Origin: Exiguobacterium sp. s146 | GTDB lineage: Bacteria; Bacillota; Bacilli; Exiguobacteriales; Exiguobacteriaceae | Direction: 5' to 3' | DNA length: 64,000 bases | Assembly (NCBI RefSeq): GCF_018618415.1 | Contig: NZ_JACSMA010000001.1 | Span: forward strand, 1,178,001-1,242,000 | In this document: piece by piece, positions 771 to 32,224 of the stretch | Layout: each line of letters opens with the position of its first letter | How positions within the stretch are numbered: the stretch's first letter is position 1 | Position numbers and translations under genes: made by a program | The notes under the pieces: model-generated | Database searches by the model: none | What the model was told of the DNA's origin: nothing | What the model saw: the letters and a program-made list of their open reading frames with translations, nothing else

Positions 771-1667
771 TTAAGCGGCTTTCGCTCTATATTCTTTAGG
801 GCTGAGGCCGTTTAATCGTTTTTGGTATCTTTCGTGATTATAAAAATAGATGTACTCATTTATGGCAATGTTAAGTTCTTCAAAGGTCTGATACTTATGT
901 AAATAATACTTTTCACATTTTAACGTGCCGAAAAAAGATTCCATTGGTCCATTATCAATACAGCGACCAACCCGTGACATACTTTGAGTCATTCCTGCCG
1001 CCTCTAATTTACGCTTGAACGCCTTAGAGGTGTATTGGAATCCACGATCACTATGAATCAGTGGGTGTTCTTGATGCAATCGTACGATTGCCTGGTCAAG
1101 CGTTTTAAATACCAGTTGATTATTATTAGAGTGTCCCAGCACATAGCTAATAATGGATCCGTCATAAAGATCACGAATCACACTGAGATAGGCCTTCTTA
1201 GATAGGCCATATTTAAATTCTGTCACATCCGTTACCCATTTCTCATTCGGCTTTTTAACTGTGAATTCACGGTTTAATACGTTCTCTGCCACATGTTGTG
1301 GTGACGACTTTTTGTGCCGTTTTCGCTTCTGGCGGATGACCGAACGGATCTCATGGATACGCATGAGACGATAGATGCGCTTCTCATTGTATGCCGGCAG
1401 GTCATGCTGGCGTCGTCTGCGATTGACCGTCATGGTGATCCGTCGATAACCGTAGGTCCCGTTCACCTGGTCGTAAAGGAGGCGGATGTCTTCCAATAGG
1501 CTCAAGTTCTCTTCTTCGCGTACCGAGACGGTACGCTTCAACCATTTATAGTAGGCGGCCCGTGAGACCTGCGCGATCTCGCACAGGAGCACGACCGGGA
1601 ACGTGTCGGTCGTCGACATTTCCTCGATGACCATGTATCGCAATTGTAGCCTGATCTGGCTGATCAA
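771..1667 (-). CDS. IS3-family transposase OrfB (DDE integrase)
   Basis: This 298-residue protein has an HTH_21-like N-terminal part (about 50-110, with GTYGYRRI) and an rve/DDE core. The catalytic triad is visible as D in WVTDVTEF, D in HSDRGFQYTS and E in DNGPMESFFGTLK, with the usual C-terminal NHERYQKRLNGLSPKEYR. The nominal start is a TTG at 1667, but OrfB is normally made as an OrfA-OrfB fusion by -1 frameshifting. An A6G slippery run sits at 1691-1697 in the orfA remnant, and the -1 frame is open from there into orfB. Since most of orfA is gone, functional transposase is unlikely. Confidence 0.93.
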   Translation of the reverse strand: MISQIRLQLRYMVIEEMSTTDTFPVVLLCEIAQVSRAAYYKWLKRTVSVREEENLSLLEDIRLLYDQVNGTYGYRRITMTVNRRRRQHDLPAYNEKRIYRLMRIHEIRSVIRQKRKRHKKSSPQHVAENVLNREFTVKKPNEKWVTDVTEFKYGLSKKAYLSVIRDLYDGSIISYVLGHSNNNQLVFKTLDQAIVRLHQEHPLIHSDRGFQYTSKAFKRKLEAAGMTQSMSRVGRCIDNGPMESFFGTLKCEKYYLHKYQTFEELNIAINEYIYFYNHERYQKRLNGLSPKEYRAKAA

Positions 1668-26871: not shown

Positions 26872-28116
26872 TCAAGCCGTCTTCTGTTTCGCTTCGGCTG
26901 CGCTGACACGACGTCCGAGTTGCCAGTAGATGAGACCTGACACACAACTGGCCGCCCCGACGAGAATCAAGGCGATATGGCCGGCCCGCTGATCGAAGAA
27001 CAGGCTCGCCATAATCGGAGCCGTCACCCCGCCAATCAACCACTGGATACTGGCGGCACCGTTATAGGCCCCGCGCATGTTCTCCGGAGCGATCAAGGCG
27101 ATGAACGTCTGTTGGACCGGCGACATGATCATCTCGCCGAGCGTATAGAACGCGTATACCGCGAGCAAGACGCTAACGAGGACGAGGTACGGTGTCCCAA
27201 GGGAGTAGAGGAGACGAGGCATGACCGCGATCAGAATCATGCCGACGCCGAAGATGGTCGCCCCGGCGAGCATGACGTTACCGAACGGCTTGCGTCCGAG
27301 CTTCGAGGCAATCGGGAACTGGAACAACACGACCATGATGCCGTTCAAGGCGAGCATATAGGCGAACGGGTTCTCCCGGTCGGTGAACGACGGCATCGAC
27401 TCCCGTAAGAACAGCGGCAACATGCTCTCGATGAGCGAGAAGCCCATCGAGATGAACACTCCGGCGAAGATGAAGACGAGGAACACCTTGTCGTTATAAA
27501 ACACTCGCAGGACGTCCCGGTTCGACGGCGTGTCGGCCTCGGTCGTCTCCGGGAGCGATTCTCGGATGTAGCGTCCGAGCACGAGCGCATACAAGACGAA
27601 GACGAGCGAGGCCGAATAGAAGATATACTGCCTATCGATGAACAGGACGGCGCTGCCGAGGAGCGGGCCGAGTGCGGCCCCGATGTTATGGCCCATCCGC
27701 AACAGACCGAACGCCTCGTTCATCTGTTCCGGTTCGGTCACGTCCGCGACCATCGCGCTCGCGGCCGGATGGAACAACGAGTTCGTCAAGCCGAGCATGG
27801 CGTTCAAGAGAAGGAGCGGCCAGAACGTCTCGGCGAACGCGAAGCCGACGAGGGCGAGGGCGTCGCCGAGGATGGCAATCATCATGATCGGCTTGCGGCC
27901 ATACACGTCGGCGAGCCGTCCGCCGACGACGGAGCCGATGAGGGCCATGATCGGACCGGTCGCCATGATGACCCCGACCTGGATATAACTGTCGAGCTTG
28001 TCGCTGTAATAGAGGACGAGGAACGGCGCGATCATGAACATCATGACACCGGTAATCGTCTCCCCGAGGAAGCGGATCCAAATATTGCGGTCGAGTCGTT
28101 TGAGTGATTGAATCAT
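26872..28116 (-). CDS. MFS multidrug-type exporter under leader-peptide attenuation
   Basis: The ATG at 28116 (AGGTGA five bases upstream) gives 414 residues with 12 membrane segments. Motif A is GGRLADVYGRKPIMM (residues ~65-80), and a motif C-like GHNIGAALGPLLGS lies in TM5, typical of DHA1 drug:proton antiporters. A 180-base leader carrying a 24-codon ORF and a terminator precedes it, the arrangement seen for ribosome-antibiotic resistance genes in Firmicutes, so the substrate may be a ribosome-targeting drug. That inference rests on the leader, not on the protein sequence. Monocistronic. Confidence 0.87.
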   Translation of the reverse strand: MIQSLKRLDRNIWIRFLGETITGVMMFMIAPFLVLYYSDKLDSYIQVGVIMATGPIMALIGSVVGGRLADVYGRKPIMMIAILGDALALVGFAFAETFWPLLLLNAMLGLTNSLFHPAASAMVADVTEPEQMNEAFGLLRMGHNIGAALGPLLGSAVLFIDRQYIFYSASLVFVLYALVLGRYIRESLPETTEADTPSNRDVLRVFYNDKVFLVFIFAGVFISMGFSLIESMLPLFLRESMPSFTDRENPFAYMLALNGIMVVLFQFPIASKLGRKPFGNVMLAGATIFGVGMILIAVMPRLLYSLGTPYLVLVSVLLAVYAFYTLGEMIMSPVQQTFIALIAPENMRGAYNGAASIQWLIGGVTAPIMASLFFDQRAGHIALILVGAASCVSGLIYWQLGRRVSAAEAKQKTA

Positions 28117-28144
28117 TGGGTTCACCTGCTTTAGTTGATGGAAT

Positions 28145-28184
28145 GAAAAAAGGGACGCGGCATGCACAAAGGCATACGCGTCCC
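28145..28184 (-). terminator. Attenuator terminator in the MFS leader
   Basis: On the minus strand GGGACGCG (complement of 28177-28184) plus ATGC pairs with GCAT and CGCGTCCC (complement of 28152-28159), followed by six T residues. It ends about 30 bases before the MFS start codon, so it must be bypassed for expression. CATGCC in its 3' arm is complementary to GGCATG at 28198-28203, giving a possible antiterminator. Confidence 0.75.
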
Positions 28185-28220
28185 TACGATCTTAGACATG
28201 CCTCGGAAGGCAGGCGAACG

Positions 28221-28295
28221 TCACGGATTCAAATCACGGAGAGGCGCCTGCCGGTCAATATGGACTTGGACGAATGAGCGTTGAATGACTGACAT
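28221..28295 (-). CDS. Leader peptide of the MFS exporter gene
   Basis: A 24-residue ORF (MSVIQRSFVQVHIDRQAP... to LRDLNP) begins at 28295 six bases after AAGGAGAGG and stops at 28221-28223. Its codons contain GGCAGGCG (28245-28252), complementary to CGCCTGCC at 28209-28216 just downstream of the stop. Ribosome position on this ORF would therefore decide which hairpins form, including the terminator at 28145-28184. It is too short for any enzymatic role. Confidence 0.65.
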   Translation of the reverse strand: MSVIQRSFVQVHIDRQAPLRDLNP

Positions 28296-28381
28296 GGATA
28301 CCTCTCCTTTCTGCATTGGACTGTCTTCTTTTCAAGATTATGATAATTCGGTGAAATGTGTCAACACAAATTATGAATGTG

Positions 28382-29655: not shown

Positions 29656-29816
29656 CTTTCTATCAAGAGAAGCGGAGGGACTGGCCCGATGAAGCTTCAG
29701 CAACAGATTGTTCCAATACTGTGCTAATTCCAGCAAGGTGACCTTGAGAGATGGAAAGGTGGTTGTTTGAATACGTCCGTATCTCGACACCCCTTTCCGC
29801 GGAAAGGGGTGTTTTT
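29656..29816 (+). promoter_or_regulatory. SAM-I (S-box) riboswitch with terminator
   Basis: The aptamer runs from the P1 strand CTTTCTATC (29656) to GATGGAAAG (29758). Conserved elements are CAAGAG, GGAGGGACTGGCCC (kink-turn side), GAAGCTTCAGCAAC, GTGCTAATTCC and GAGAGATGG. A perfect terminator (ACACCCCTTTCC / GGAAAGGGGTGT, 29787-29811, then six T) follows, and its 5' arm can instead pair with the P1 3' strand GGAAAGGTGGT as an antiterminator. High SAM should switch off the aminotransferase/dehydrogenase genes. Confidence 0.93.
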
Positions 29817-32061: not shown

Positions 32062-32224
32062 ATTGCTTATCAAGAGTGGTGGAGGGACTGGCCCTGTGAA
32101 ACCCGGCAACCAGATCGTTATGATCATGGTGCTAATTCCAACAGACGAAATCGTCTGGGAGATGAGCGTGTCCGACTTTGACTTGTCGTGCCCGCCACTC
32201 TGAATGAGTAGCGGGCTTTCATTT
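32062..32224 (+). promoter_or_regulatory. SAM-I (S-box) riboswitch of metQNI
   Basis: The aptamer spans P1 GCTTATC (32065-32071) to GATGAGC (32161-32167) with the conserved CAAGAG, GGAGGGACTGGCCC, GAAACCCGGCAACC, GGTGCTAATTCC and TGGGAGATG. The terminator GCCCGCcACTC / GAGTaGCGGGC (32190-32216) is followed by TTTCATTTT and lies just before the metQ ribosome binding site GGAGGAGG. Confidence 0.94.

Follow-up and report, generated by a model that had tools for sequence, protein, structure and literature searches.

Exiguobacterium is a bacterium of soil and water, and the 64,000-nucleotide stretch of Exiguobacterium sp. s146 DNA analysed here (the window) carries a gene for a multidrug-type exporter of the major facilitator superfamily (MFS) preceded by a short open reading frame (ORF) and a terminator hairpin. 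We asked how this leader could govern the exporter gene, and to which signal it might respond. The reading that we favour, with a probability of roughly 0.7, is that the leader acts as a transcription attenuator under ribosome control, switched on by ribosome arrest close to the start of the ORF, that drives the MFS exporter.

Leader anatomy and conservation

All elements of the leader lie on the minus strand. A sigma-A promoter (28337-28364), with a -35 box TTGACA at 28364-28359, a -10 box CATAAT at 28342-28337 and a spacing of 16, matches the consensus at 11 of 12 positions. Downstream are a Shine-Dalgarno (SD) sequence, AAAGGAGAGG (28301-28310), which also forms part of a pairing segment termed segment 0, and a leader ORF of 24 codons that runs from ATG at 28295 to TGA at 28221 and encodes MSVIQRSFVQVHIDRQAPLRDLNP. 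The start side of segment 0, TCAGT (28288-28292), has its partner ATTGA at 28259-28255, and segment 1, GGCAGGCG (28245-28252), coincides with ORF codons 15-17. Segment 2, CGCCTGCC (28209-28216), is complementary to segment 1, and TGCCT at 28212-28208 also pairs with AGGCA of segment 3, GAGGCATGT (28196-28204), the 5′ strand of the antiterminator. The intrinsic terminator, GGGACGCGTATGC-CTTTGT-GCATGCCGCGTCCC (28152-28184), folds with a computed energy of about -22 kcal/mol, is followed by six T at 28151-28146, and holds in its 5′ arm the 3′ strand of the antiterminator, GTATGCCTT (28177-28169). The regulated gene (26872-28116, ATG at 28116) encodes a DHA1-like MFS multidrug-type exporter of 414 aa, and the distance from promoter to gene is about 215 nt, the leader being chromosomal.

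The window leader was more stable than its dinucleotide shuffles (z = -3.6; 0 of 200 as stable). A perfect 8-bp complement between ORF and spacer occurred in 2.5% of synonymous-recoding and shuffle controls, and taken from one genome alone this match is only suggestive. Rfam covariance models for riboswitches, T-boxes and other leaders gave no match to the leader, and a DNA search across its own 2.85-Mb genome gave no further copy. The stretch from the end of the AI-2E family transporter gene upstream (28382) to the MFS promoter showed no terminator-like site, so that readthrough transcripts would meet the attenuator too. Two SAM riboswitches (Rfam RF00162, 91-93 bits) lie at 29657-29757 and 32064-32168 on the plus strand, opposite to and upstream of the MFS and AI-2E transporter genes.

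The exporter matched Pfam MFS_1 at 7.6e-48, its best family matches were multidrug families, and its nearest solved relatives were NorA and LmrP chains (about 1e-13); as judged from these matches, the pump would carry out multidrug-type export. We compared 38 Exiguobacterium genomes that fall into two GTDB genera, 19 in the genus of the window (g1) and 19 in a sister genus (g2). An ortholog of the exporter was present in all 19 g1 genomes (83-100% identity) and in all 19 g2 genomes (66-69% identity). The g1 gene is flanked by the AI-2E family transporter upstream and by a peptide permease as the next gene downstream. The g2 gene lies at another locus, where these two neighbours were absent from the 5.2-kb regions compared and where an ORF that by eye resembles peptide release factor 3 lies upstream.

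An SD sequence, a leader ORF of 18-25 codons and a terminator preceded the orthologous MFS gene in 38 of 38 genomes. Leader DNA related to that of the window was detected in every g1 genome (19/19), with an invariant -35 box TTGACA and SD core GAAAGGAG. Further invariant stretches in g1 were ATGTCAGT, the greater part of segment 2, and GGC.TG and GTATGC, which lie in segment 3 and in the terminator 5′ arm, respectively. Between start codon and segment 1 the g1 alignment contains a single indel, which is 3 nt long. Every distinct terminator sequence folded into a hairpin, and the letters of the stem varied by species (GACGCG, GACGAG and GACGTC; GGGACGCG, GGGACGAG and GGGACGUC) with pairing mostly kept. 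The g1 peptides follow the pattern MSV[IVM]...H[IT]D[RWG][QR]AP, followed by 0-8 further residues that vary, and the g2 peptides end in VRHPIV or VRRPAV, have nothing obvious in common with those of g1, are wholly unlike them in the N-terminal half, and vary among themselves in their N-terminal residues. The g1 and g2 leaders showed no significant similarity by blastn at word size 7. A literature search on the g2 peptide end (RHPIV and variants) returned unrelated text matches only, and no published Exiguobacterium attenuator was found in the literature searched.

The promoters compared (window and L014-L020) revealed one further feature. In one g1 subgroup the promoter spacer contains an inverted repeat, for example TGACACATT-GACCA-AATGTGTCA in L015, that overlaps the -35 and -10 region and is decayed in the window (28364-28337); it could be a repressor operator.

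Predicted mutually exclusive helices in two dissimilar leaders

Folding of the g1 alignment with RNAalifold gave two alternative structures. With the 5′ part withheld, segment 1 paired with segment 2 (helix 1:2, GGCAGGCG:CGCCUGCC) and segment 3 paired with the terminator 5′ arm (helix 3:T5′, GAGGCAUGY:GUAUGCCUY), while withholding segment 1 yielded a hairpin between segments 2 and 3 (2:3) together with the terminator stem. Across the 19 g1 genomes, the 8-bp helix 1:2 was paired in 95.4% of cells, helix 3:T5′ in 97.1% and the 2:3 hairpin in 97.9%. Helices 1:2 and 3:T5′ taken jointly were paired in 96.3% of cells, against 28-50% after the partners were slid by 1-3 columns. A further helix between the start side of segment 0 and late ORF codons (0:1, UCAGU:A(C/U)UGA) was paired in 98% of cells and complete in 17 of the 19 genomes, and on the SD side AGAGG (28305-28301) pairs with CCTCT (28244-28240) in 14 of 19. 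Double-sided changes in 1:2 and 3:T5′ amounted to two pairs, a number reached by 47 of 500 column shuffles, and helix 0:1 showed no compensatory change in g1. The structure is thus backed weakly by covariation and strongly by conservation of pairing: an antiterminator and an anti-antiterminator that exclude each other and overlap the ORF are conserved, with few compensatory changes.

These alignments bear on a preliminary description of the locus. The ribosome binding site, the 24-codon ORF, the complementary segments overlapping it and the strong terminator with its T run that it listed are all present, and the conservation that it called for was found, with the ORF in 19 of 19 g1 genomes and the 8-bp helix in 95% of cells. 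Its GGCATG motif exists at 28202-28197, one base away from the 28203-28198 given for it. The antiterminator proposed there, GGCATG with CATGCC of the terminator 3′ arm, has an exact partner in only one of 19 genomes, that of the window, and was replaced by the conserved pairing of GAGGCATGY with GTATGCCTY of the 5′ arm, recovered by RNAalifold and paired in 97% of cells. As to the covariation that it looked for among homologous leaders, the helices do pair in more than 95% of cells, but covariation within g1 is modest.

In g2 the same chain of pairings (0:1, 1:2, 2:3, 3:T5′ and terminator) was predicted with different letters. Helix 0:1 joins GACGUACA, between SD and AUG, to UGUACGUC in the late ORF codons; helix 1:2 is UACGUCACCC:GGGUGUACGUA; helix 2:3 is GUACGUAU:AUACGUAC; and CAUGCUGCCC pairs with GGGUAUG of the terminator 5′ arm, followed by the terminator itself. 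One leader departs from the g1 scheme. In L009 (G006; contig shared with L054, E. aurantiacum PN47) the peptide reads HTDRSGS in place of the QAP-type ending, the QAP codons are lost and helix 1:2 is broken (GGTCGGGG), with segments 2, 3 and the terminator retained; here the switch may have decayed or changed.

Computed dependence on ribosome position

To relate these structures to translation, leaders were truncated where the terminator 5′ arm ends and folded at equilibrium, and a ribosome footprint reaching 15 nt to each side of the first P-site base was kept unpaired. In g1 leaders L014-L019 the antiterminator probability was about 1.0 with the ribosome at codons 1-6, and in L020 it was 0.7 at codons 1-4. 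For these species the values were about 0.13-0.4 over most codons from 12 to a few before the stop, and 0.01-0.84 when the ribosome was absent. The window gave 0.71-0.76 at codons 1-2 compared to 0.38 without a ribosome, with 0.33-0.40 over most of codons 9-17 and 0.49 at codon 10. Stepwise folding of the window placed the probability of helix 1:2 at about 1.0 at codons 1-5 and at 0.00 without a ribosome or at codons from 12 onwards. In most g2 leaders, too, the antiterminator probability peaked at codons 1-2, a range that extended to codon 5 in some, and was low elsewhere.

As a control, the part upstream of segment 3 was shuffled 60 times per species and the early-minus-late difference was scored. 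The observed difference was matched by 0 of 60 shuffles in L014 and by 1-2 in the window (L002), L015, L017, L020, L079, L083 and L086. It was matched by 3-8 of 60 in L011, L012, L013 and L076, and by 15-18 of 60 in L008, L009 and L010; four leaders, L008, L009, L010 and L012, show a weak equilibrium switch. On these calculations, the ON state would correspond in most species to a ribosome on roughly the first 1-6 codons, and a ribosome over GGCAGGCG, or none, would favour OFF. The antiterminator was in every case computed to be less stable than the complete terminator, so that switching has to be kinetic, depending on co-transcriptional folding. Kinetic switching is usual for attenuators.

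Proposed mechanism, alternatives and related systems

The anatomy of the leader, its conservation, its mutually exclusive helices and the computed ribosome-position dependence lead us to the following scheme, in which translation of the ORF is itself inferred. When no ribosome is present, the SD and start region would pair with the late ORF codons (0:1) and leave segment 2 free; a freely translating ribosome would cover the late ORF codons, and segment 2 would likewise be free. In both cases 2:3 would form, then the terminator, and the MFS gene would be off. Arrest of a ribosome within roughly the first six codons would break 0:1 and leave segment 1 open, 1:2 would form, and segment 3 would be released to pair with the terminator 5′ arm, so that RNA polymerase would read through and the exporter would be made. 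The signal would be a drug that stops ribosomes from initiating or from forming the first peptide bonds, such as a lincosamide, a pleuromutilin, a streptogramin A or possibly a phenicol. The start-proximal critical position, together with an N-terminal peptide that varies between species, makes such a drug likelier than a peptide-specific macrolide stall.

A macrolide-type attenuator in the style of erm, mef or hflXr, in which a drug-bound ribosome stalls at a nascent-peptide motif, sits on segment 1 and frees segment 2, appears unlikely here. It would account for an overall layout like that of mef(E) and for the retention of MSV[IVM] and H[IT]D[RW][QR]AP in most g1 peptides. However, the R/K-X-R/K motif was absent from 37 of 38 leader peptides, the exception being a C-terminal RLK in L016, and the g2 peptides are entirely different in their N-terminal half. 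The retained residues have another explanation, as helix 0:1 can account for the MSV and HTD/HID codons and helix 1:2 for the QAP codons. Together with the lack of such a motif at a useful site, this speaks for a leader that senses ribosomes arrested during initiation or directly afterwards. In addition, a ribosome stalled over GGCAGGCG would here leave the 2:3 hairpin and termination favoured, contrary to the standard logic. The preliminary description had predicted a ribosome-stalling attenuator that makes the exporter inducible by a ribosome-targeting drug, with macrolides, lincosamides or phenicols as drugs to try. The ORF-dependent attenuator before the MFS gene is supported by its conservation in 38 of 38 genomes; macrolides are not the favoured inducers. 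Its observation is sound and its broad interpretation probably right, with the antiterminator and the likely drug class revised. Given the conserved MSV[IVM] at the g1 N-terminus, a peptide-specific early stall is possible.

It is rather improbable that the leader reads amino acid supply or the general state of translation, with uncharged tRNA or low initiation capacity as the signal and a metabolite or peptide as the exported substrate. The start-proximal geometry would respond to slow early elongation as well, and a peptide permease is the next gene downstream in g1; yet the run of codons for a single amino acid that marks trp- and his-type attenuators was found in none of the leader peptides of the 38 genomes, the g2 gene is not beside that permease within the loci compared, and the best matches of the exporter are multidrug families. 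Very improbable, in our judgement, is a plain partial terminator next to a chance ORF, where the hairpin makes constitutive expression weaker and the alternative pairings arise incidentally from a palindromic, G+C-rich sequence. Low covariation within the clade and the 8-bp match found among the controls would fit it, but all 38 genomes retain the SD, the ATG and the frame, the lone g1 indel between ORF start and segment 1 preserves the frame at 3 nt, and the dissimilar g2 leader repeats the same chain.

Start-proximal arrest therefore remains our preferred signal, and the best model is likely a sensor resembling that of vmlR, responding to lincosamides, pleuromutilins and streptogramin A more than to macrolides. 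In Bacillus subtilis, vmlR is switched on by drugs under which initiating ribosomes become arrested on an upstream ORF (uORF) of three codons, with lincomycin and retapamulin as strong inducers and erythromycin and linezolid as weak ones, and most codon variants of the uORF are still functional (PMC9226507). Both leaders, from Bacilli, combine a uORF, an anti-antiterminator, an antiterminator and an intrinsic terminator (PMC9226507). The vmlR switch senses arrest where its uORF begins and tolerates changes of the uORF codons (PMC9226507), as the folding model and the varying g2 N-terminal residues would suggest for Exiguobacterium. vmlR encodes an ABC-F ribosome protection factor and has its three-codon uORF inside one stem-loop (PMC9226507), whereas the Exiguobacterium ORF has 18-25 codons, uses its late codons as a pairing segment and regulates an MFS exporter. 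The mef(E)/mel leader of Streptococcus pneumoniae likewise couples a leader peptide and transcription attenuation to the MFS gene mef(E) (PMC4335068). It differs by its macrolide stall motif MTASMRLR, its 327-nt length and its location on mobile elements (PMC4335068), in contrast to a chromosomal leader of about 215 nt from promoter to gene, without an RLR-like motif and present in every genome searched. The hflXr/rli80 leader of Listeria monocytogenes, which responds to lincomycin and erythromycin, also joins a uORF to an anti-antiterminator, an antiterminator and a terminator, but has a 14-codon ORF with an RLR motif and regulates a ribosome-splitting GTPase (PMC6310831).

The Exiguobacterium leader is probably a new, well-conserved case of a type of switch that a few resistance genes are known to use. 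If our reading is true, all the Exiguobacterium genomes searched encode an intrinsic MFS pump that drugs induce by way of early ribosome arrest, and the logic of vmlR would extend from ribosome protection to efflux. The g1 and g2 leaders form a natural experiment, in which leader sequence and peptide have wholly changed and the predicted switching logic is kept. From the folding models we put forward, tentatively and with some doubt, that two dissimilar leaders at different loci in sister genera converge on one five-segment circuit that senses where the first ribosome stands (ON near the start, OFF elsewhere), as a peptide-independent sensor of initiation arrest within a long uORF, with a multidrug MFS pump under its control.

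MFS homologs of 42-50% identity, belonging to another family of the class, were inspected by eye, and L095, L096 and L098 have no comparable leader. Before a 46% homolog of another family, L097 carries a different leader (1240-1425, minus strand) that gave no Rfam match in the one genome of that genus examined. It is strongly folded (z -7.9), a possible five-codon ORF (MKTAQ) lies inside its stem-loop, a second terminator precedes the MFS gene, and on the basis of this predicted fold it looks like an independent vmlR-style leader.
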